In this document: piece after piece, positions 4,583-16,073 of the stretch
Numbering within the stretch: position 1 is the first letter of the stretch
Layout: every line of letters starts with the position of its first letter
NCBI GenBank assembly: GCA_021779875.1
Contig: JAJXZV010000069.1
Location: 1 to 16,335 of the forward strand
DNA length: 16,335 nt
From: Pseudomonadota bacterium
GTDB lineage: Bacteria > Pseudomonadota > Gammaproteobacteria > Steroidobacterales > Steroidobacteraceae
Direction of reading: 5' to 3'
Translations under genes and position numbers: made by a program
The notes under the pieces: generated by a model
Database searches by the model: none
Seen by the model: the letters and a program-made list of their open reading frames with translations, nothing else
Told to the model about the DNA's origin: nothing

Positions 4583-4611
4583 ATCGTAATGACTTTTCGG
4601 CATCGAATCAA
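4583..4611 (-). promoter_or_regulatory. Probable sigma70 promoter of the APC permease
   Basis: On the minus strand TTGATT (4611-4606) and TACGAT (4588-4583) are separated by exactly 17 bases; each matches four of six consensus positions. A transcript would begin near 4576, giving a leader of about 32 nt to ATG 4543. This placement is the main argument against the longer start at 4603. Confidence 0.45.
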
Positions 4612-4639
4612 AAGGGCGATCGAGGTGCTAGACTTTTCG
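4591..4639 (+). repeat. Short direct repeat GACTTTTCG, two copies
   Basis: GACTTTTCG occurs at 4591-4599 and 4631-4639, start to start exactly 40 bases, close to four helical turns. Both copies lie between the permease and the divergent potF-like gene, one inside the predicted permease promoter and one just before the potF start. A pair of regulator half-sites is possible; chance is not excluded for a 9-mer. Confidence 0.4.
4626..4634 (+). promoter_or_regulatory. Possible extended -10 of the potF-like gene
   Basis: TGCTAGACT has the TGn of an extended -10 followed by TAGACT, 8 bases before ATG 4643. No convincing -35 lies 16-18 bases upstream (AATCAA). If used, the message would have almost no leader. 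The same TGCTAG core recurs before the aminotransferase gene at 14711-14719. Confidence 0.3.
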
Positions 4640-4642
4640 CCC

Positions 4643-5767
4643 ATGACGAACCGCCGACGGCGGACGATGTTCTCGTGGGCTGGCGGCCTGGCGCTCGGTG
4701 CGATCGCCCTGGCCTCGATTGCGTTCCAGCCGGCCGCCGGCGGCGAGCGGCTGCTGTATGTCTACAACTGGTCCGATTTCATCGGACCGCGCACGATCGA
4801 GGAATTCGAGCGTCTGACCGGCATCAAGGTCGTCTATGACGTCTACGACGCCGAGGAGACGATGGAGGCGCGGTTGCTCGCCGGCGGATCCGGCTACGAC
4901 GTCGTGGGCGCTTCCAGCGAGTTCTTCGGGCGCGAGATCAGAGCGGGCGCCTACGAGGCGCTCGACAAGACCCGGCTGCCCAACTGGGGCAATCTCGATC
5001 CGCGGGTTCTGGCGATCCAGGCGTCTTCGGATCCCGGCAACGCTCATGCGGTGCCGTACCTGCACGCCATGAACGGCTTCGCCTACAACGTCGACCTGGT
5101 GAGGGCGCGCATGCCCGCCGCGCCCGTGGACAGTCTCGACATGCTGTTCAAGCCGGAGGTGGTGGCCCGATTCGCCGACTGCGGCGTGACCTTTCTCGAC
5201 TCGCCGGAGGACGTGCTGCAGCTGGCGTTGCGCTACCTCGGATTGGACCCGAACACGACCAGTGCCGCGGACTACCGGGCCGCCGAGCGCCTGCTGCTCA
5301 AGGTGCGCCCCTACGTGCGCGCCTTCGACTCGGTGGAATACATGAACACGCTCGCCAACGGGGAGGTCTGTCTGGCGATGTCTTGGTCCAGCGATTACGC
5401 CGTGGCGATGGCCCGCGCCCGCGCCGCGGGTCTCGACGTCAAGCTGGCCTACAGCGTGCCCAAGGAAGGGGCCAATCTGAACTTCTTCTCGCTGTTGATT
5501 CCCGCGGGAGCACCGCATCCCGATGCGGCACACCAGTTCCTGAACTTCATGTTGACCCCGCGCGTGATCGCCGACGTCACCAACAGCATCTTCTACGGCA
5601 ACGACAACCTGGCGTCCCGGCCGCTGGTCGACCCGCGGATCCTCGCCGATTCCACCCTGTACCCGACGGCGGCCATGGAAGCGCGGCTGTTCGTGGCCAC
5701 CGAGCCGAGCGCCGCGACCGAGCGGCTGCGCACGCGCATCTGGACCCGGATCAAGACGGCCAAGTGA
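4643..5767 (+). CDS. potF: Periplasmic polyamine-binding protein (PotF-like)
   Basis: 374 residues with a Sec signal peptide: RRRR near residue 5, a hydrophobic stretch to about 28 and cleavage around PAAGG (30-34). It is the extracellular binding protein of a polyamine ABC importer. YNWSDFI (41-47), LDSPEDV (185-191), LANGEVCLAMSW (237-248) and the C-terminal RTRIWTRIKT closely follow E. coli PotF. From my memory of PotF, pocket residues W37, D39, E185, W244, D247, F276 and Y314 are kept here (W43, D45, E189, W248, D251, F281, Y318), but Y40 is F46, the WATT stretch is HAMN (141-144), and D278 is S283. The ligand may therefore differ from putrescine. ATG 4643 is preferred to upstream ATG 4589, which would add a charged tail before the signal peptide. 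Permease genes for it lie convergently; no ATPase gene is adjacent. Confidence 0.9.
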   Translation: MTNRRRRTMFSWAGGLALGAIALASIAFQPAAGGERLLYVYNWSDFIGPRTIEEFERLTGIKVVYDVYDAEETMEARLLAGGSGYDVVGASSEFFGREIRAGAYEALDKTRLPNWGNLDPRVLAIQASSDPGNAHAVPYLHAMNGFAYNVDLVRARMPAAPVDSLDMLFKPEVVARFADCGVTFLDSPEDVLQLALRYLGLDPNTTSAADYRAAERLLLKVRPYVRAFDSVEYMNTLANGEVCLAMSWSSDYAVAMARARAAGLDVKLAYSVPKEGANLNFFSLLIPAGAPHPDAAHQFLNFMLTPRVIADVTNSIFYGNDNLASRPLVDPRILADSTLYPTAAMEARLFVATEPSAATERLRTRIWTRIKTAK

Positions 5768-5783: not shown

Positions 5784-5804
5784 CCCGGCGGTCACGCCGC
5801 CGGG
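5784..5804. terminator. GC hairpin between convergent genes
   Basis: CCCGGCGG (5784-5791) and CCGCCGGG (5797-5804) form a perfect 8-bp stem with a TCACG loop that includes the potI stop codon. It sits between the stops of two convergent genes and could end transcription from both sides. There is no clear T-run on either strand, so it is at best an atypical terminator. Confidence 0.4.
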
Positions 5805-6634
5805 TGGCGCTCGGCCAGCTGCATCTGCACCGCGCGGGTGCGCTCGGTCCGGCGCATGACGTAGCCGGCGAGCAGGATGCAGGCGCCCACGGCGCAGATG
5901 ATCACGCTCGCCAGCGCGTTGACGTCGGGGCTGAGGCCGAGCTTCACCCTCGAGAAGATCACCATGGGCAGCGTGCTCGCGCCGGGCCCCGACACGAAGC
6001 TCGAGATCACGAGATCGTCGAGCGACAGCGTCATGCACAGCAGCCAGCTCGAGGCGAGGGCGGGCAGCATGGCCGGGAGCGTCGTGTCGAGGAAGGCGCG
6101 CACCGGACCGGATCCGAGGTCCATGGCCGCCTCCTCCAGCGAGGGATCGAACCCCTGCAGCCGCGACTGCACGGTGACCGTGACGTAGGCGGTGCAGAAG
6201 GCGAGATGGGAGATCACGATGGTCGTGACGCCCCGGTGGGGCCAGCCGAACACGTGCAGCATCGAGACGAACAGCAGCAGCTGCGTGATTCCGGTGATGA
6301 TCTCCGGCATCACGAGCGGGGCGTTGACCATGCCGGTGAGCAGCAGCCGCCCGCGAAAGTTCGCGAACCGGACGAGTGCGACGGCCGCGAGGGTGCCCAG
6401 CAGCACCGAGCCCGTGGCCACCATCAGTCCGATCTCGAGCGAGAGCCGGGCCGCGTCCAGGATCTGGTCGTCGTGCAGCAGCTTGACGTACCACCCGGTC
6501 GAGAATCCACCCCAGACGTTCACGAGGGCCGAGCCGTTGAACGAGTACGCGACCAGCACCAGGATGGGGACGTACAGCACGGCGATTCCGAGCCACAGCG
6601 AACCGAGCAGCAGCGGCGGCGGACGCCCGGTCAC
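5792..6634 (-). CDS. potI: Polyamine ABC transporter permease PotI
   Basis: 280-residue inner-membrane permease with about six helices. The cytoplasmic EAA loop that docks the ATPase is at about residues 165-187 (PSLEEAAMDLGSGPVRAF). The C-terminal part SLDDLVISSFVSGPGASTLP and FSRVKLGLSPDVNALA follows E. coli PotI almost residue by residue. The start is GTG (6632-6634), overlapping the potH stop as GTGA, so the two permeases are translationally coupled and would form the heterodimeric channel. The last codons fall in a GC hairpin that separates it from the convergent binding-protein gene. The intact EAA loop means a partner ATPase is expected, but no such gene lies beside it. Confidence 0.93.
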   Translation of the reverse strand: MTGRPPPLLLGSLWLGIAVLYVPILVLVAYSFNGSALVNVWGGFSTGWYVKLLHDDQILDAARLSLEIGLMVATGSVLLGTLAAVALVRFANFRGRLLLTGMVNAPLVMPEIITGITQLLLFVSMLHVFGWPHRGVTTIVISHLAFCTAYVTVTVQSRLQGFDPSLEEAAMDLGSGPVRAFLDTTLPAMLPALASSWLLCMTLSLDDLVISSFVSGPGASTLPMVIFSRVKLGLSPDVNALASVIICAVGACILLAGYVMRRTERTRAVQMQLAERHPAA

Positions 6635-7587
6635 CGGGCCCGTTCCGGCACGCGGGTGCTGTAGTGCTGGTAAAGCGCGATCGGGCCCACGAGCAGCACC
6701 AGGAACACCACGGCGACGGCGGACGCCACGGGCCAGTCGCGGTTGCCGAAGAACTCGTCCCAGAGTACGCGGCCGATCATGAGGCTGTCGGCACCGCCGA
6801 GCAGCGCGGGGATCACGAATTCACCCACCGCCGGAATGAACACCAGCATCGATCCGGCGATCACGCCGGGCATGGACAGCGGCAGCGTGACCTCCAGGAA
6901 TACCCGCCAAGGCGGGCTGCCGAGATCCGCCGCCGCTTCGACCAGCGATCGGTCGAGCTTCTCGAGCGTCGTGTACAGGGGCAGCACCATGAACGGAAGA
7001 TACGAGTAGATGATGCCGATGTAGACGGCCGCGGCCGTGTGCATGATCTGCAGCGGATGGTCGATCAGGTGCAGGCGCAGCAGCACGGAATTCAGGACGC
7101 CGTTCTCCCGGATGATGCCCTCGAGCGCGTACACTCGCAGCAGGAACGAGGTCCAGAACGGCAGGATGACGATGAGCAGCAGCACGCTCTGCGTGCTCGG
7201 GCGCATCCGTGCGATGGCATAGGCCATGGGATAGCCCAAGAGCAGGCATACGATGGTGGAGACGAGCGCCGTCTTGAGCGAATACAGATACGCGTACCCG
7301 TACAGCTCGTCGGTGAACAGATAGCGGAAATTGCCGAGATTCAGGCGCAGATGGATGTGCCAGTCGGGCGTGATGGATAGAATGTCGGCGTACGGGGGAA
7401 TGTGAATCGCCTGCTCCGACAGGCTGATCATCAGCGAGAAGGCGAACGGCACGAGGAAGAAGGTGAACAGAAACACCATGGGCGGCAGGATGACGAGCCA
7501 TTTTCCCTGGCGCGCGAGCCACGTGCGACGGGCCCCCGGGTCCGCCGCACTCCGCGGCGCGCCGCCGTCGCGTCCGGTGCTGGTCAT
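6631..7587 (-). CDS. potH: Polyamine ABC transporter permease PotH
   Basis: 318-residue inner-membrane permease. The N-terminal about 30 residues are polar and basic and lie in the cytoplasm, then a hydrophobic first helix at 31-55. The EAA loop is SLVEAAADLGSPPWRVF (214-230). The stretch SMLVFIPAVGEFVIPALLGG, then MIGRVLWDEFF and NRDWPVASAVAV, is nearly identical to E. coli PotH, so the assignment is firm. It is the first gene of the potH-potI pair. Its ATG (7587) is only 17 bp from the start of the divergent regulator gene, so promoters must lie within the opposing coding regions. AGGA lies about 10 bases before the ATG as a weak ribosome site. No PotG-type ATPase gene is linked. Confidence 0.94.
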   Translation of the reverse strand: MTSTGRDGGAPRSAADPGARRTWLARQGKWLVILPPMVFLFTFFLVPFAFSLMISLSEQAIHIPPYADILSITPDWHIHLRLNLGNFRYLFTDELYGYAYLYSLKTALVSTIVCLLLGYPMAYAIARMRPSTQSVLLLIVILPFWTSFLLRVYALEGIIRENGVLNSVLLRLHLIDHPLQIMHTAAAVYIGIIYSYLPFMVLPLYTTLEKLDRSLVEAAADLGSPPWRVFLEVTLPLSMPGVIAGSMLVFIPAVGEFVIPALLGGADSLMIGRVLWDEFFGNRDWPVASAVAVVFLVLLVGPIALYQHYSTRVPERAR

Positions 7588-7604
7588 GAGAAGGCCATCC
7601 TAGC

Positions 7605-9245
7605 GTGGCCGCACGCAAAGGGAAGCCCCCGCGGCGATCCAAGCCGGCCGTGCGCGCCGGCCGGGGCCAGCAGCGCCAGCGCCTGATCGAGGCCTGCATC
7701 TCGGCCCTGCACCAGTACGGGCCGTCGCGCACGACGGTGGAGAAGGTGGTCGCCATCGCCCGGATGTCCCCGGGCATCGTGCGCTTTTACTTCGACTCCA
7801 AGGCCGCCATGCTGGTCGCCTCGCTGCAATTTCTCGCCGGCGAGTTCGAGGAGCGCGTGCTCGTACCCGTCGCCAGGCTCAAGTCCGACCCCGTGGCCGC
7901 GCTCGATCTGCTGATCGATCTGTATCTCGACCCCGACATCGCCAGTCCGCGCAAGGTGTCCGTGTGGTATGCGTTCTGGGGAGAGGCGAGCTCGCGCCAG
8001 GAGTATTACGAGATCTGCGGCCAGAAGGACCAGAGTTTCGCCGCGCTCGTGCGCGATCTGATCGGGCGGCTGGTCGCCCAGTCGCCGCCGCCCGCACCCG
8101 ATCCGGATGCGGTGGCGCTGGGGCTGATCGGCTCGCTCGAGATGCTGTGGCAGGAATTCGCCTTTCAGGACGAGAGCGCCATCGATCGGCCGGCCGCCAA
8201 GCGCCGCTGCCGGGCCTACCTTCGTTCGATCTTTCCCGGTCGATTCGCCGCCGCCGCCGCGCCGGCCGGCCGGGGGCCGGCGGGCGCGCCGACGTTTCGC
8301 GAAGGGCTCGACCTGTTCCGCGGCGAGTGGCAGCTGCTCGGACTGGCGTCGGCGCTGGCACGGACCGGCGACTTCCTCACGGCCCGGATCGGCGGCGAGC
8401 ACGTCATCGCGGTGCGCCTTGCGGACGGGTCGGTTCAGGCGCTGCGCAATTGCTGCCCGCGGCTGCCGCATGCGCTGGTGGAGGCCCCCGCGGGACGCGC
8501 GGACGGCTGGAGCTGCGAGGCTCACGGGCTGCGGTTCGCGCTGGATGGGGCCGGGCTCGGTGCCGCGGATTGCCCGGACCTGCCGCGCCTGGATTGCCTC
8601 ACGACGAATGGATTGATCCTGTGCAGATCTCGCGGGCCGGCCGACGCCGGCGCGCCGGCGTGGCGGGACGTGGCGGCCGGCGGTCCGCTGCGCCCGCTCG
8701 GTCCGCCGGGCGAAGTGCGCATCGCGGCGGACTGGAGGATGCTCGTGTCCCATTGGCTGTCGCGCGAGCCCGCGGGGGCGCCTTTCTCGATCCTCGCCGC
8801 GGCGGACGGCACGCAGGTTGGAATCGAGTGGACCACCGGTCGCGCGCCCGACGGCGGCGGTTGGACCGGCCGGGCCCTGGGACGCCTGTCCGCCGCGCGG
8901 CAGCGGCCGGCGACCCGCCGGCGTTTCATCGCGCCCAATCATGGAATCGAGTGGCGCGAGGACGGGATGACGATCCTGCAGGTGGAGCCCGAGGCGCCGG
9001 GCCGAAGCGTGCTCAAGCAGTGGCAGCTGACCGCCTGCGCGGATGAGCGCGCGGCACGCGCGGCCAATTATCTCGTTCGCCGCGCCGATGGCCTCGAGCG
9101 GCGCGCCAGTCGGGCGCTGGCCGCGTCGGCGCAGCAGGGGGTCGAGCGGTTCGGTTACCCGATCGCGGAACGTCCGGCGGCGGCGGTCGGCTGGTTTCAG
9201 GATTGGCTGCGGGAGCGATGGCCGCCGGCGGCGGCCGGCCGTTGA
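7605..9245 (+). CDS. BetI/TetR-type regulator fused to a degenerate Rieske-oxygenase module
   Basis: 546-residue two-part protein in one uninterrupted frame. Residues 22-75 are a TetR helix-turn-helix (TTVEKVVAIARMSPGIVRFYF), and 76-210 a BetI-like ligand/dimer domain containing VSVWYAFWGEA. A low-complexity Ala/Gly/Pro linker (214-229) leads to about 317 residues resembling a Rieske oxygenase alpha subunit. The Rieske site reads C284-P-R286, 17 residues, C304-E-A-H307: spacing is intact but the first His is Arg. The helix equivalent to DWKLAMDNYLESYH is DWRMLVSHWLSREP (376-389), so the bridging acid and both iron His are gone. PNHGIEW to FQDWLRER follows the C-terminus of the neighbouring active oxygenase. 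It cannot be an oxygenase; a ligand-sensing role is inferred. GTG 7605 is the only start: an in-frame TGA lies 18 bases upstream, and GAGAAGG (7588-7594) is a fair ribosome site. Confidence 0.88.
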   Translation: MAARKGKPPRRSKPAVRAGRGQQRQRLIEACISALHQYGPSRTTVEKVVAIARMSPGIVRFYFDSKAAMLVASLQFLAGEFEERVLVPVARLKSDPVAALDLLIDLYLDPDIASPRKVSVWYAFWGEASSRQEYYEICGQKDQSFAALVRDLIGRLVAQSPPPAPDPDAVALGLIGSLEMLWQEFAFQDESAIDRPAAKRRCRAYLRSIFPGRFAAAAAPAGRGPAGAPTFREGLDLFRGEWQLLGLASALARTGDFLTARIGGEHVIAVRLADGSVQALRNCCPRLPHALVEAPAGRADGWSCEAHGLRFALDGAGLGAADCPDLPRLDCLTTNGLILCRSRGPADAGAPAWRDVAAGGPLRPLGPPGEVRIAADWRMLVSHWLSREPAGAPFSILAAADGTQVGIEWTTGRAPDGGGWTGRALGRLSAARQRPATRRRFIAPNHGIEWREDGMTILQVEPEAPGRSVLKQWQLTACADERAARAANYLVRRADGLERRASRALAASAQQGVERFGYPIAERPAAAVGWFQDWLRERWPPAAAGR

Positions 9246-13341: not shown

Positions 13342-14517
13342 TCAGGTTACCGTCCGTGCGAACTGGCGGGGTGCGTCGGCGAGGTGGAACTCGGGAATCC
13401 GTGCGCGCAGCAACTCGTGGAATTCGAACATGTGGCGCTCCGTGGCCGACAGCGGCCCGGGTTGGTAGCTGGCCGACGAGAGGCCGCGTTGCACGCGCGT
13501 GCACAGCCGGCGATCCTCGGCATTGACCTGCGAATTGATGCGCGACCCCAGATAGCGCAGGGTGCGCATCTCGGGCCGGGCGTCCGGCAGCCCGAAGAGG
13601 CCCGAGCGGATCCGGCACCTTCCGGGCCCGGCCGGCAGCACCTGGAAGAAGTCCATCTGTTCGGGAAAGACGTCTATCCCCAGATTGGGCAGGACGCTGT
13701 AGAAGCGCCAGCAGCGGCGCAGCTCCTCGGGCAGTTCGGTGGCGATGCGGCCGACGTGCCGCTGATAGAGGCGCTCGGACCATTTGGGGGACTCGGCCTC
13801 CTTGAGCCAGCTCAACCCTCGGGCGATGCCGGGAACCCACGCCTGGTCGTCGTAGTCCGGCGTGAACATGCGATAGAGGCCCGGATGCCCGATCGGCACG
13901 TGGTAGGACTCGAGGTAATTGTCCATCGCGAGCTTCCAGTCGACCGGCCACTCCTCGTACGTGATCGGCCCGAGCGGCACCATCTCCTCGAACCGGTACG
14001 GGATCAGCTCGGCGGCCAGGGGGCCCCAGGTGGCGGCCACGGGCGGCGGATCGTCGGCGAGACAGACGAAGATGAATCCGAACGACACGTCGAGGCGGAC
14101 CGGGCGCAGCCCGTGCGCCGCCAGGTCGAGATCGGCGAAGGTGGCGCGCATCGGCACCCCGACCAGCCCGCCGTCGTGCCGGTAGGTCCAGCCGTGATAC
14201 GGACAGGTGATCTGACCCGGGCAGCGCCCGCTGCCGTCGAGCAGGCGCGCGCCCCGGTGCCGGCAAACGTTGTGAAAGGCGTGCAGCTCGCCATCGCGGT
14301 CGCGGAGCACGAGCACGCTCTCGCCGCCCAGATCGAACACCGTGTAATCGCCGGCGCGGGGCAGGGAGTTGACGTGGCAGACGATCTGCCACGAGGGGGC
14401 CAGGATGCGCTCGATCTCCAGCCGCTCGAGCGAGGGGTGGGAGTACACCCAGGCGGGCAGCGCGCGCGCGGCCATCGCCTCCCGCGTGTCGGGGCAGGTT
14501 TCGGGCGAGTGGTTCAT
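13342..14517 (-). CDS. Rieske non-heme iron oxygenase, alpha subunit
   Basis: 391-residue cytoplasmic oxygenase. The [2Fe-2S] site is C85-R-H87, 17 residues, C105-P-Y-H108. The catalytic domain has NYLESYHVPIGH with iron ligands H206 and H211 and a probable third ligand D335 in NAEDRRLCTRVQRGL. The bridging acid three residues before H206 is Glu (E203), where naphthalene-dioxygenase-type enzymes have Asp; carnitine monooxygenase CntA is known for Glu. The family hydroxylates aromatics or oxidatively demethylates/cleaves amines; the amine-rich neighbourhood favours the latter, by inference. ATG 14517 is chosen because GGGAGAGG lies just upstream; the open frame reaches 14577 but would cross the operator. 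First gene of an operon with the TonB receptor. No reductase gene is seen nearby. Confidence 0.92.
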   Translation of the reverse strand: MNHSPETCPDTREAMAARALPAWVYSHPSLERLEIERILAPSWQIVCHVNSLPRAGDYTVFDLGGESVLVLRDRDGELHAFHNVCRHRGARLLDGSGRCPGQITCPYHGWTYRHDGGLVGVPMRATFADLDLAAHGLRPVRLDVSFGFIFVCLADDPPPVAATWGPLAAELIPYRFEEMVPLGPITYEEWPVDWKLAMDNYLESYHVPIGHPGLYRMFTPDYDDQAWVPGIARGLSWLKEAESPKWSERLYQRHVGRIATELPEELRRCWRFYSVLPNLGIDVFPEQMDFFQVLPAGPGRCRIRSGLFGLPDARPEMRTLRYLGSRINSQVNAEDRRLCTRVQRGLSSASYQPGPLSATERHMFEFHELLRARIPEFHLADAPRQFARTVT

Positions 14518-14533
14518 CGGCCTCTCCCTGAAT

Positions 14534-14551
14534 GTTATATGAACATATAAC
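14534..14551. promoter_or_regulatory. Inverted-repeat operator upstream of the Rieske oxygenase
   Basis: GTTATATG-AA-CATATAAC is a perfect inverted repeat with 8-bp arms and a 2-bp centre. It lies 16 bp before the oxygenase start and overlaps the predicted -10 and transcription start, the geometry of a repressor site. The regulator is unknown; the BetI-like fusion protein at 7605 is the best local candidate. A related copy lies at 14669-14686. Confidence 0.65.
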
Positions 14552-14577
14552 CTACTCCTCGATAGCTTGCCTTGCAA
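14549..14577 (-). promoter_or_regulatory. Probable promoter of the oxygenase-receptor operon
   Basis: On the minus strand TTGCAA (14577-14572) and TAGGTT (14554-14549) are spaced by exactly 17 bases. The -35 matches four of six and the -10 three of six consensus positions. The -10 overlaps the inverted repeat at 14534-14551. The strong ribosome site GGGAGAGG follows before ATG 14517. Confidence 0.4.
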
Positions 14578-14668
14578 GACGGGTCATCCGGTGTGCACGG
14601 AGGCGATAGTGGCGTGAAAGCCAGCATGCGCGGCCGCTCATGGGACGATTGTGTGCCGTGCAGAACAG

Positions 14669-14686
14669 CTATATGGGTATATAAAA
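14669..14686. promoter_or_regulatory. Second, diverged copy of the inverted-repeat site
   Basis: GCTATATGGGTATATAAA matches 13 of 18 positions of the perfect site at 14534-14551, keeping TATATG on one side and ATATAA on the other. It lies 135 bp from the first copy and just upstream of the predicted -35 of the aminotransferase promoter. Two such sites in one divergent region suggest one regulator acting on both operons. Confidence 0.45.
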
Positions 14687-14690
14687 ACGC

Positions 14691-14719
14691 TGGACGAGCA
14701 CTTTCCGCGGTGCTAGCGT
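14691..14719 (+). promoter_or_regulatory. Probable promoter of the aminotransferase operon
   Basis: TGGACG (14691-14696) and TAGCGT (14714-14719) are spaced by 17 bases, with TGC directly before the -10 as an extended -10. A transcript would begin about 20 bases before ATG 14745 and include the ribosome site GAGGAGAAG. Confidence 0.4.
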
Positions 14720-14744
14720 CGCGGCCAGTTCGAGGAGAAGCGCC

Positions 14745-16073
14745 ATGTCCCGGAATCTCACCAAGAGCAATGCACACTTCCAGCGCGCCCTGCGGCGCCT
14801 GCCGCTCGGCGTCGCCTCGAACTTCCGCTACTGGGGCGAGGGGCGCACGATCTACGTGAAGCGGGGGCGCGGCGCGCGGATCGTCGATCTGGACGACAAC
14901 GTGTACGTCGACTATCGCCTGGGCTACGGCCCGGCGATCCTGGGATTCGCCGATCCGCGCGTGGATGAGGCGGCGCGCCGCGGCATGGAGGTCGGGGGCG
15001 TGTTCGCGCTCTCCACGGAGCGGGAGCTGGAGGTGGCCGAGCGCATCGCGAAGATGGTTCCGGCGGCCGAACTGGTGCGCTTCTCCAACTCGGGAACCGA
15101 GGCCGTCATGGCGGGTTTGCGCCTGGCGCGCGCCTACACGGGCAGGGACGACTACGTCATTCTCGAGGGCGGCTACCACGGACTGTTCGACGCCGCCATG
15201 TGGTTCACCCCCATGGACAAGTGGTCGCAGGTGGGCGACCCGGAAGTGCGGCCCTACAGCGAAGGAGTGCCGATCAGCACGCGCAGCTTCGCGCACTTCG
15301 TGCAGGCCAACGACGCAGATCAGCTCGAGGACGTGTTCAAGCGGCACGGGGATCGAATCGCCTGCCTGTTGATCGAGCCGATCATGGGCAACTGTCTCGG
15401 GATCGCCGCCGAGCCGGAGTATCTGCGCGCGGCGCGGGCGTTGTGCGATCGGTACGGCGTGGTCCTGCTGATCGACGAGGTCAAGACCGGCTTTCGCGTG
15501 GCGCGCGGCGGCGTGCAGGAGCTGTACGGCGTGCAGGCCGACCTGTGCACCTTCGCGAAGGCGGTGGCCAACGGATACCCGATCTCGGTGCTCGCGGGCC
15601 GCGAGCACATCATGCGCAAGATCGGCCGCGGCGTCGCGCACGGCGGCACGTACACGGCGCACGCCGTGTCGCTGGCGGCGGCGGCCAAGACGCTGGAGAT
15701 CCTGGACGAGACCGACGCGCTCGAGCGGATCTGGGCGTACGGCGCCCGCATGCGCGAGGGGATGCGCGCCATCCTGCAGTCGCGCGGGATCGCCCACAGC
15801 TTCGTCGGGCATCCGTCCATGAGCGGCCTGTACTTCTCGAGCGAGCCGCCCCGCAACTACCGGCACTGGAAGGGCAGCGACTATTCCTTCTACGACGCCA
15901 TGGCGCGCGTGCTGCACGATGAGGGCGTGCTGTGCGAGCCGGATTCGCGCGAGCCCTGGTTCGTGTGCGCGGCCCACGACGACGGCTGCCTCGCGGACAC
16001 GCTGCGCGCCTTCGAGATCGCCGTGGACGCGACGCTGGCGAACGGCGGGTCGGCGCGCGAAGCGCGCGCTTGA
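14745..16073 (+). CDS. Class III PLP-dependent aminotransferase (HemL-like fold)
   Basis: 442-residue cytoplasmic fold-type I enzyme resembling glutamate-1-semialdehyde aminomutase and related omega-aminotransferases. Visible PLP residues are SNSGTEA (115-120) for phosphate, D244 in LLIDEVKTGFR for the pyridine nitrogen, and K272 in TFAKAVANGYP as the Schiff-base lysine; GGTYTAHAVS (300-309) is also typical. Two features argue against real HemL: K247 replaces the Met of DEVMTGFR, and the gene sits in a catabolic locus beside an oxygenase. A role as an amine:ketoacid transaminase or a mutase on an amino-aldehyde is inferred; the substrate is unknown. GAGGAGAAG (14732-14740) just before the ATG sets the start. 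Divergent from the oxygenase-receptor operon, and overlapped at its end by the FAD oxidoreductase gene. Confidence 0.9.
   Translation: MSRNLTKSNAHFQRALRRLPLGVASNFRYWGEGRTIYVKRGRGARIVDLDDNVYVDYRLGYGPAILGFADPRVDEAARRGMEVGGVFALSTERELEVAERIAKMVPAAELVRFSNSGTEAVMAGLRLARAYTGRDDYVILEGGYHGLFDAAMWFTPMDKWSQVGDPEVRPYSEGVPISTRSFAHFVQANDADQLEDVFKRHGDRIACLLIEPIMGNCLGIAAEPEYLRAARALCDRYGVVLLIDEVKTGFRVARGGVQELYGVQADLCTFAKAVANGYPISVLAGREHIMRKIGRGVAHGGTYTAHAVSLAAAAKTLEILDETDALERIWAYGARMREGMRAILQSRGIAHSFVGHPSMSGLYFSSEPPRNYRHWKGSDYSFYDAMARVLHDEGVLCEPDSREPWFVCAAHDDGCLADTLRAFEIAVDATLANGGSAREARA

Follow-up and report, generated by a model that had tools for sequence, protein, structure and literature searches.

The locus and its fusion gene

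In the 16,335-nucleotide stretch of Steroidobacteraceae DNA analysed here (contig JAJXZV010000069.1, below called the window), positions 7605-9245 of the forward strand encode a single protein of 546 amino acids (aa), in which a BetI-type TetR repressor is followed by the complete fold of a Rieske ring-hydroxylating oxygenase (RHO) alpha subunit that is devoid of the catalytic iron site. The initial annotation had described such a frame, combining a TetR/BetI-type regulator with an RHO module without iron site, and the domain profiles agree. The gene has the following features:

7605..9245, forward strand: TetR-pseudo-Rieske-oxygenase fusion, 546 aa (open reading frame (ORF), translation, domain profiles, homologues)
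7671..7820, forward strand: TetR helix-turn-helix (HTH), residues 23-72 (domain profile and alignment)
7890..8234, forward strand: BetI-type TetR_C_6 ligand/dimer domain, residues 96-210, almost invariant (domain profile and alignment)
8325..8564, forward strand: Rieske domain, residues 241-320, with C284, R286, H289, C304 and H307 (domain profile and alignment)
8565..9242, forward strand: RHO catalytic-fold domain without iron site
8730-8771, forward strand: remnant iron helix, residues 376-389, inside the RHO catalytic-fold domain

The N-terminal half matches the TetR profile PF00440 with 25 bits (gathering threshold 24) and the BetI-type profile PF13977 with 52.9 bits (threshold 27), while its score of 67.6 bits for BetI proper (TIGR03384) lies below the equivalog cut-off of 201.3. 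The C-terminal region contains both the Rieske and the catalytic-domain fold of an RHO alpha subunit, as had been expected. By sequence and fold alone, the protein qualifies as a DNA-binding domain joined to a catalytically dead enzyme domain. The long stop-free frame had been put forward as an argument that the gene is retained, but the opposite strand of the same DNA also has an open frame, of 565 aa, so that an open frame alone does not argue for a real fusion gene; instead, the gene is judged real because of homology and selection. A gene split or assembly artefact is ruled out, since 52 of the 80 loci examined, which come from many metagenome-assembled genomes, have the full-length form.

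The fusion recurs widely. A protein search with it returned 1734 proteins at E<=1e-3, and the best 120 of these, the window protein included, were used for alignment (the closest sequences below); TetR_C_6 is found in all of them and Rieske is annotated in 119 (P0004 being without), and the HTH segment MSPGIVRFYF (residues 54-63) is invariant (120/120). For the genomic loci one genome per species was scanned and 80 of 144 loci were kept, which by our own classification comprise 52 full-length dead fusions, six ligand-complete fusions, five fusions cut by a contig end, three with a partial C-terminal domain (C-domain) and 14 with the TetR half only, whereby the C-domain of L081, in the TetR-only count, lies in a different frame and L066 stops near a contig end. 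The fusion is broken by a frameshift or stop in L026 and L081, where the C-domain is still recognisable. In a set of 40 genomes, which comprises that of the window and those surrounding it, the protein is present in 18 with one match each, part of which span the TetR half or little beyond; it occurs in 16 of 22 others of the window's genus and in one of two others of its family, and 15 genomes from other families of the order had no match.

State of the metal ligands

Intact Rieske domains follow the pattern C-x-H...C-x-x-H, from which the window departs with C284-P-R286, while C304-x-x-H307 is retained; the 2-His-1-carboxylate iron site is not present, its His being missing. The loss of the iron-site His had been reported for the window and extends to the whole family, with the motif Y-H-x4-H in none of the 52 full-length genomic dead fusions. 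The other two substitutions pointed out in the initial annotation hold for the window, but not for most of its relatives. Within the closest sequences, Arg at position 286, the first Rieske His of intact enzymes, is found in the window protein and the three sequences nearest to it only (P0002-P0005), and many residues substitute there: Glu in 99 of 120, Ala in eight, Gln in six, Arg in four, His and Val in one each, with one untallied, and in the 52 genomic fusions Arg (15), Gln (8), His (8), Glu (7), Val (6), Ala (3) and others. The bridging acid is S386 in the window, but Glu in 98 of the 120 closest sequences and Glu or Asp in 40 of the 52 loci. The column of the invariant iron Asp corresponds in the alignments to residue 502, which is Ser in the window; the invariant S508, tried as a substitute for this Asp, was ruled out, as the Asp column is 502 and S508 is common to intact fusions.

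As judged from these alignments, the universal change across the dead family is the loss of the catalytic iron site, whereas the first Rieske His has often, though not always, been lost. The label "dead" therefore fits the mononuclear iron site, and less clearly the Rieske cluster, of which three of the four ligands remain in the window together with an adjacent, conserved His289 that had been overlooked. Each of C284, H289, C304 and H307 is found in 120 of 120 closest sequences, and to call the Rieske cluster of the family dead appears too strong, because the four residues persist jointly in 50 of the 52 full-length fusions. The exceptions are L025, where H307 is lost, and L068, where C284, H289 and C304 are lost. 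L025 (Acetobacteraceae), whose fusion keeps the first Rieske His and has lost the second, has two neighbour-type oxygenase genes.

This joint persistence, while position 286 varies freely, would suit a [2Fe-2S] cluster or other metal that is bound via C284, H289, C304 and H307 and tunes repression in response to, for example, the oxygen, iron or electrons available to the oxygenase nearby. It would also suit such gating that seven of the 52 fusions still have all four canonical Rieske ligands, while none has the iron-site motif, although the iron site could simply have gone first. Moreover, H289 is already conserved in ligand-complete fusions (119/120) and need not be a replacement ligand, and the losses in L025 and L068 do not fit, so that we regard metal or redox gating as unlikely.

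Ligand-complete fusions and descent of the dead domain

Homologues of the same fusion that keep all metal ligands had been named as evidence against an enzyme turned regulator. Such proteins exist, with all metal ligands in 119 of the 120 listed, but they form a separate family, so that they fill in the history of the dead family and do not refute it. A search with one of them, L087, returned 535 proteins at E<=1e-3, and the best 120 were used as the intact family. TetR_C_6, Rieske and Ring_hydroxyl_A are present in all 120, as are the first Rieske Cys and His and the iron-site Glu, His, His and Asp, while the second Rieske Cys and His are found in 119. The predicted model of one member, P0122, has a mean pLDDT of 89.5. 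A profile comparison of the dead and intact families aligned 548 columns, linker included, with an E-value of 1.6e-97.

A tree of oxygenase domains (quick method, 102 rows, without short C-domains and five of the neighbour rows) unites the dead domains in a single clade (SH-aLRT 99) that is joined with all intact fusions except L085 (support 87), and the oxygenases encoded separately near the fusion stand in a clade of their own (support 100). H289 is present in 118 of 120 intact fusions (119 in another tally) and 120 of 120 dead fusions, but in none of 55 aligned neighbour oxygenases, and R266 and S508 have the same distribution; at 80%, no marker is common to the dead domain and the neighbour oxygenases alone. 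Because of these site markers, descent from an intact fusion is favoured, and the dead domain most likely derives from a bifunctional enzyme-regulator, that is, a TetR repressor fused to a ligand-complete RHO. The TetR tree places dead-fusion and TetR-only rows together in a single clade (support 100), within which the TetR-only rows are dispersed at supports mostly below 95. The oxygenase domain was probably lost outright repeatedly, in several lineages.

In a phylum-wide sample of 299 genomes, no ligand-complete fusion was found; 19 matched at E<=1e-70 with the oxygenase part only (query residue 217 on). The neighbourhood tally has no second oxygenase at the ligand-complete loci L079, L083, L085, L086 and L087, some of which are short, while L084 has a separate oxygenase of 34% identity. 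The Inquilinus cluster L083, besides its ligand-complete fusion, has a separate BetI-type TetR gene (L083:10391-11191).

Conservation and selection on the two halves

Members of the dead family share on average 89% pairwise identity in the TetR half and 54% in the C-domain, compared to 47% and 55% in the intact family, the contrast between the TetR halves being partly due to sampling. Among 68 C-domain columns that are conserved to at least 95% in the intact family, 23 are retained in the dead family, three have switched and 42 are unconserved, the iron ligands falling among the latter. The ratio of non-synonymous to synonymous substitutions (dN/dS), for which only pairs with a proportion of synonymous differences (pS) under 0.68 were kept, was compared between the TetR half, the C-domain and the neighbour oxygenase, and gave 0.09, 0.31 and 0.13, respectively, for the closest pair (L034/L038), 0.13, 0.22 and 0.12 for L042/L048, and 0.06, 0.25 and 0.13 for L028/L054. 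The C-domain value exceeds that of the neighbour oxygenase in seven of the eight pairs having both, by a small gap in L045/L046 (0.63 vs 0.57) and L028/L036 (0.47 vs 0.43), and is equal to it in L041/L040 (0.34 and 0.35). Medians over 1156 pairs are 0.20 for the TetR half and 0.58 for the C-domain, many pairs being near saturation, so that they allow a loose reading only. By these estimates the C-domain is under purifying selection, which is clearly weaker than on the TetR half and usually weaker than on the neighbour enzyme; in this respect the claim that the RHO module is retained was borne out.

The weaker selection raises the question of whether the C-domain no longer has any function and is a remnant in decay. 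The window's own copy departs from the consensus at 16 of 77 C-domain columns (median 2 among the aligned sequences), and the 14 TetR-only and three partial loci among the 80, with the reservations made for L081 and L066, would fit the same decay. However, these 77 columns are at least 90% conserved over 120 sequences, dN/dS is well below one in the closest pairs and the whole domain persists in 52 of 80 loci, which makes a mere vestige somewhat unlikely.

The gene cluster

Around the fusion gene, the window encodes the components of a transport and breakdown cluster:

4589..5767, forward strand: PotF-like solute-binding protein
5792..6634, reverse strand: PotI-like permease
6631..7587, reverse strand: PotH-like permease, divergent from the fusion gene, 17 bp between the start codons
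9310..10806, forward strand: aldehyde dehydrogenase, PuuC/BADH-like, downstream of the fusion gene
13342..14517, reverse strand: Rieske oxygenase, separate and ligand-complete (ATG at 14517; the mechanical ORF extends to a TTG at 14577)
14745..16073, forward strand: class III aminotransferase, HemL/GntE-like, a conserved neighbour

The widespread gene order is PotF, PotI/PotH (divergent), the fusion, the aldehyde dehydrogenase (in many loci), the oxygenase (convergent) and the HemL/GntE-like aminotransferase, followed by a CrtO-like FAD oxidoreductase, a GcvT-like protein and PotG; of the 80 loci, many of them short, 44 have the GcvT-like gene and 41 the PotG-like gene. The separate oxygenase is found in 44 of the 50 loci that extend at least 6 kb beyond the fusion gene, and stachydrine demethylase and carnitine monooxygenase are among the solved proteins that match its sequence best; the best solved relative of the GcvT-like protein is trimethylamine N-oxide (TMAO) demethylase. 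From the neighbourhood genes and these solved relatives, we infer that the cluster serves to take up a quaternary or N-methylated amine and to N-demethylate it.

The aminotransferase has about 78-88% identity in most loci and scores 446 bits against a GntE cut-off of 525. The CrtO/phytoene-desaturase-like FAD oxidoreductase (L056:14421-16055) belongs to a family that is unexpected for an amine-type pathway. At 4589-4603 the mechanical ORFs of an amino-acid permease (reverse strand) and PotF (forward strand) overlap head to head, so that at least one true start probably lies further in.

Candidate operator

The intergenic region between the divergent oxygenase and aminotransferase genes contains a candidate operator, TTATATGNNCATATAA, with the palindrome core TATAT-N4-ATATA. 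Two copies are present in the window:

14535..14550: candidate operator 1, TTATATGAACATATAA, 17 bp from the oxygenase ATG
14669..14684: candidate operator 2, CTATATGGGTATATAA, 60 bp from the aminotransferase ATG

Both match the core exactly, where 0.01 exact copies are expected in the window, and there is no further exact copy elsewhere in the 2.37-Mb assembly (72% complete). In 81 sequences (1.34 Mb), 50 exact copies were found in 41 sequences, all of them nearest to an oxygenase start (33) or an aminotransferase start (17), and there was none in five Markov simulations. With the 16-bp consensus and up to four mismatches, a site is present in all 52 comparable intergenic regions (window included), which together contain 94 sites compared to 4.4 in shuffles. 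The TetR-only loci L067, L070, L071 and L074-L077 carry the candidate operator as well. Its putative link to the regulator is based on its position and the invariant recognition segment. A sigma-70 promoter scan of 14400-14850 found none.

At least two candidate operators are present in 40 of the 52 intergenic regions. RHO subunits form trimers, and for this reason a C-domain that drives higher-order assembly, so that the repressor bridges paired operators, or that contacts the oxygenase or its reductase, has to be considered, in keeping with the retained RHO fold and with a spacing of 31 bp (about three turns) in 13 of the 40 pairs. Spacings of 76 to 182 bp in 23 of the 40, which follow no single helical phase, and the paired sites at TetR-only loci argue against it, and an assembly role seems improbable to us. 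Helical phasing as a general rule was ruled out, since apart from the 31-bp group there is no single phase.

The start codons of potH and the fusion gene (7587-7605) are divergent and 17 bp apart, and comparably short gaps in several relatives leave no space for ordinary promoters. No operator was found in this gap, which is about 17-25 bp where inspected and has no common dyad evident.

Proposed mechanism

Taken together, the fusion is probably a BetI-type repressor of the divergent oxygenase and aminotransferase promoters that senses through TetR_C_6 and carries an accessory pseudo-oxygenase from a ligand-complete fusion ancestor. This reading builds on the computed architecture, fold, iron-site loss, ligand-complete family, cluster, conserved palindromes and selection contrast, from which we infer that the protein represses, what kind of compound induces it and where this binds, what the cluster acts on, in which direction the fusions descended and that the C-domain is accessory. 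The fusion would control the promoters of the N-demethylase-like Rieske oxygenase and the aminotransferase genes as part of a cluster for uptake and breakdown of a quaternary-ammonium/N-methyl-amine-type compound. A dimer would probably bind the operator copies beside both start sites, and the pathway compound, upon entering the TetR_C_6 pocket, would release it from the DNA. The ancestor was probably a TetR repressor joined to a Rieske oxygenase with all its ligands, as is still found in other bacteria. In the window's lineage, the chemistry would have been left to the separate oxygenase, while the fused copy lost its catalytic iron site and may have been kept under weaker purifying selection as an accessory folded domain with possible metal ligands C-x4-H...C-x2-H.

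By analogy with other BetI-type proteins, the TetR half most likely performs both repression and inducer sensing. The initial annotation had instead proposed that the oxygenase pocket senses the pathway compound and controls DNA binding, as the dead enzyme domain does in BzdR, a working precedent (PMC3602430). The retained RHO fold, the purifying selection on the C-domain and its usual proximity to an oxygenase that could share its substrate would be compatible with this. The proposal is weakened by the TetR half having its own, nearly invariant and far more conserved ligand domain, by the 42 formerly conserved C-domain columns, iron ligands included, that lost conservation, and by several lineages that are without the oxygenase domain and keep the same candidate operator and cluster. 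A pocket-based sensor is possible, but not favoured, and we consider it distinctly unlikely.

Several points weigh against a TetR-half repressor that descends from an intact fusion. The 89% against 47% identity of the TetR halves is in part a sampling effect, since each sample was chosen by similarity to its own query. An approximately unbiased (AU) test on 49 rows does not separate the grouping of dead with intact domains (p 0.68) from that of dead domains with neighbour oxygenases (p 0.65); this set omitted 13 fast-evolving or odd dead rows and then alternate rows of the other dead domains, as well as seven rows of intact fusions and roughly half of those of the neighbours. That the dead domain is a duplicate of the neighbour oxygenase is disfavoured by the end-to-end alignment and the marker residues, despite this p of 0.65. 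The TetR-only branches are nested among fusions with supports mostly below 95, and six of the 50 sufficiently long loci have no separate oxygenase. The operator consensus was derived from the same loci, which share ancestry; L055 and L057 have four-mismatch sites only, and in the window neither the start of the fusion gene nor the stretch ahead of potH has a site with up to one mismatch. The exact 14-mer is unspecific genome-wide: the 25 genomes from the family of the window have 35 copies of it and 18 of a reversed control, and all 40 genomes have 58 and 45, respectively. By our reading, an exact copy lies within 6 kb of the regulator on the same contig in eight of 18 regulator-bearing genomes, the other ten being without. 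Another factor could own the palindrome.

A broader proposal would make the TetR-RHO fusions a class of their own, that of metal-gated repressors new to biology, with the intact ones acting as bifunctional trigger enzymes and the dead ones as metal or redox sensors. In that case turnover by the intact fusion or the redox state of its cluster would set DNA binding, and the dead branch, without iron site, would keep C-x4-H...C-x2-H as a [2Fe-2S] or metal site to veto or permit oxygenase expression. We regard this as speculative and rather improbable.

Relation to known systems

Like BetI-type repressors (TIGR03384, PF13977), the fusion combines an HTH with TetR_C_6, has a BADH/PuuC-like dehydrogenase nearby and neighbours an oxygenase nearest to quaternary-amine demethylases, but it differs from them in its lower TIGR03384 score, its oxygenase domain of 320 residues and its candidate targets. 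With RHO alpha subunits (stachydrine demethylase, 3vca and 4qur; CntA, 6y9d) it shares the whole RHO fold and most of the Rieske loop, while it lacks the mononuclear iron site, has the first Rieske His replaced and carries an N-terminal TetR half. PutA, a flavoenzyme fold with a DNA-binding domain, remains catalytic; it is not a Rieske protein, and ligand-complete TetR-RHO fusions might likewise stay catalytic.

That no regulator of this design had been described holds insofar as no paper describing a TetR-Rieske oxygenase fusion was found by searches of the open-licence PubMed Central (PMC) literature, but the design as such has a precedent. BzdR joins an HTH-XRE domain to a dead shikimate kinase domain that binds the inducer, and its missing evolutionary link had to be made as a chimera (PMC3602430). 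It thus resembles the fusion as a DNA-binding domain fused to an enzyme domain without catalysis, and differs in that its dead domain binds the inducer, whereas the present protein has a separate ligand domain in its TetR half and an oxygenase as its enzyme part. GabR/MocR regulators are also reported to combine an enzyme fold with a DNA-binding domain, the enzyme being an aminotransferase and not a Rieske protein (PMC5734734). Enzyme-derived regulators are already known as a kind, to which TetR with a Rieske oxygenase, in intact and dead branches, is added here.

Three natural states coexist, namely TetR with a ligand-complete oxygenase, TetR with a dead one and TetR alone, the latter two with the same kind of cluster and the same candidate operator, so that a defined operator, the function of the remnant domain and the sequence in which the changes took place are directly testable in what appears to be an enzyme that, in nature, was taken up into a gene switch. 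The ligand-complete fusions, in turn, suggest an unstudied class of oxygenase-regulators. Such fusions, for example that of Inquilinus limosus (L083), share with the dead ones the domain order, an end-to-end alignment and, in L083, similar Pot-type transport and aminotransferase neighbours, and differ in having the Rieske and iron ligands and a diverse TetR half. Some of them are named "SRPBCC family protein" by NCBI.
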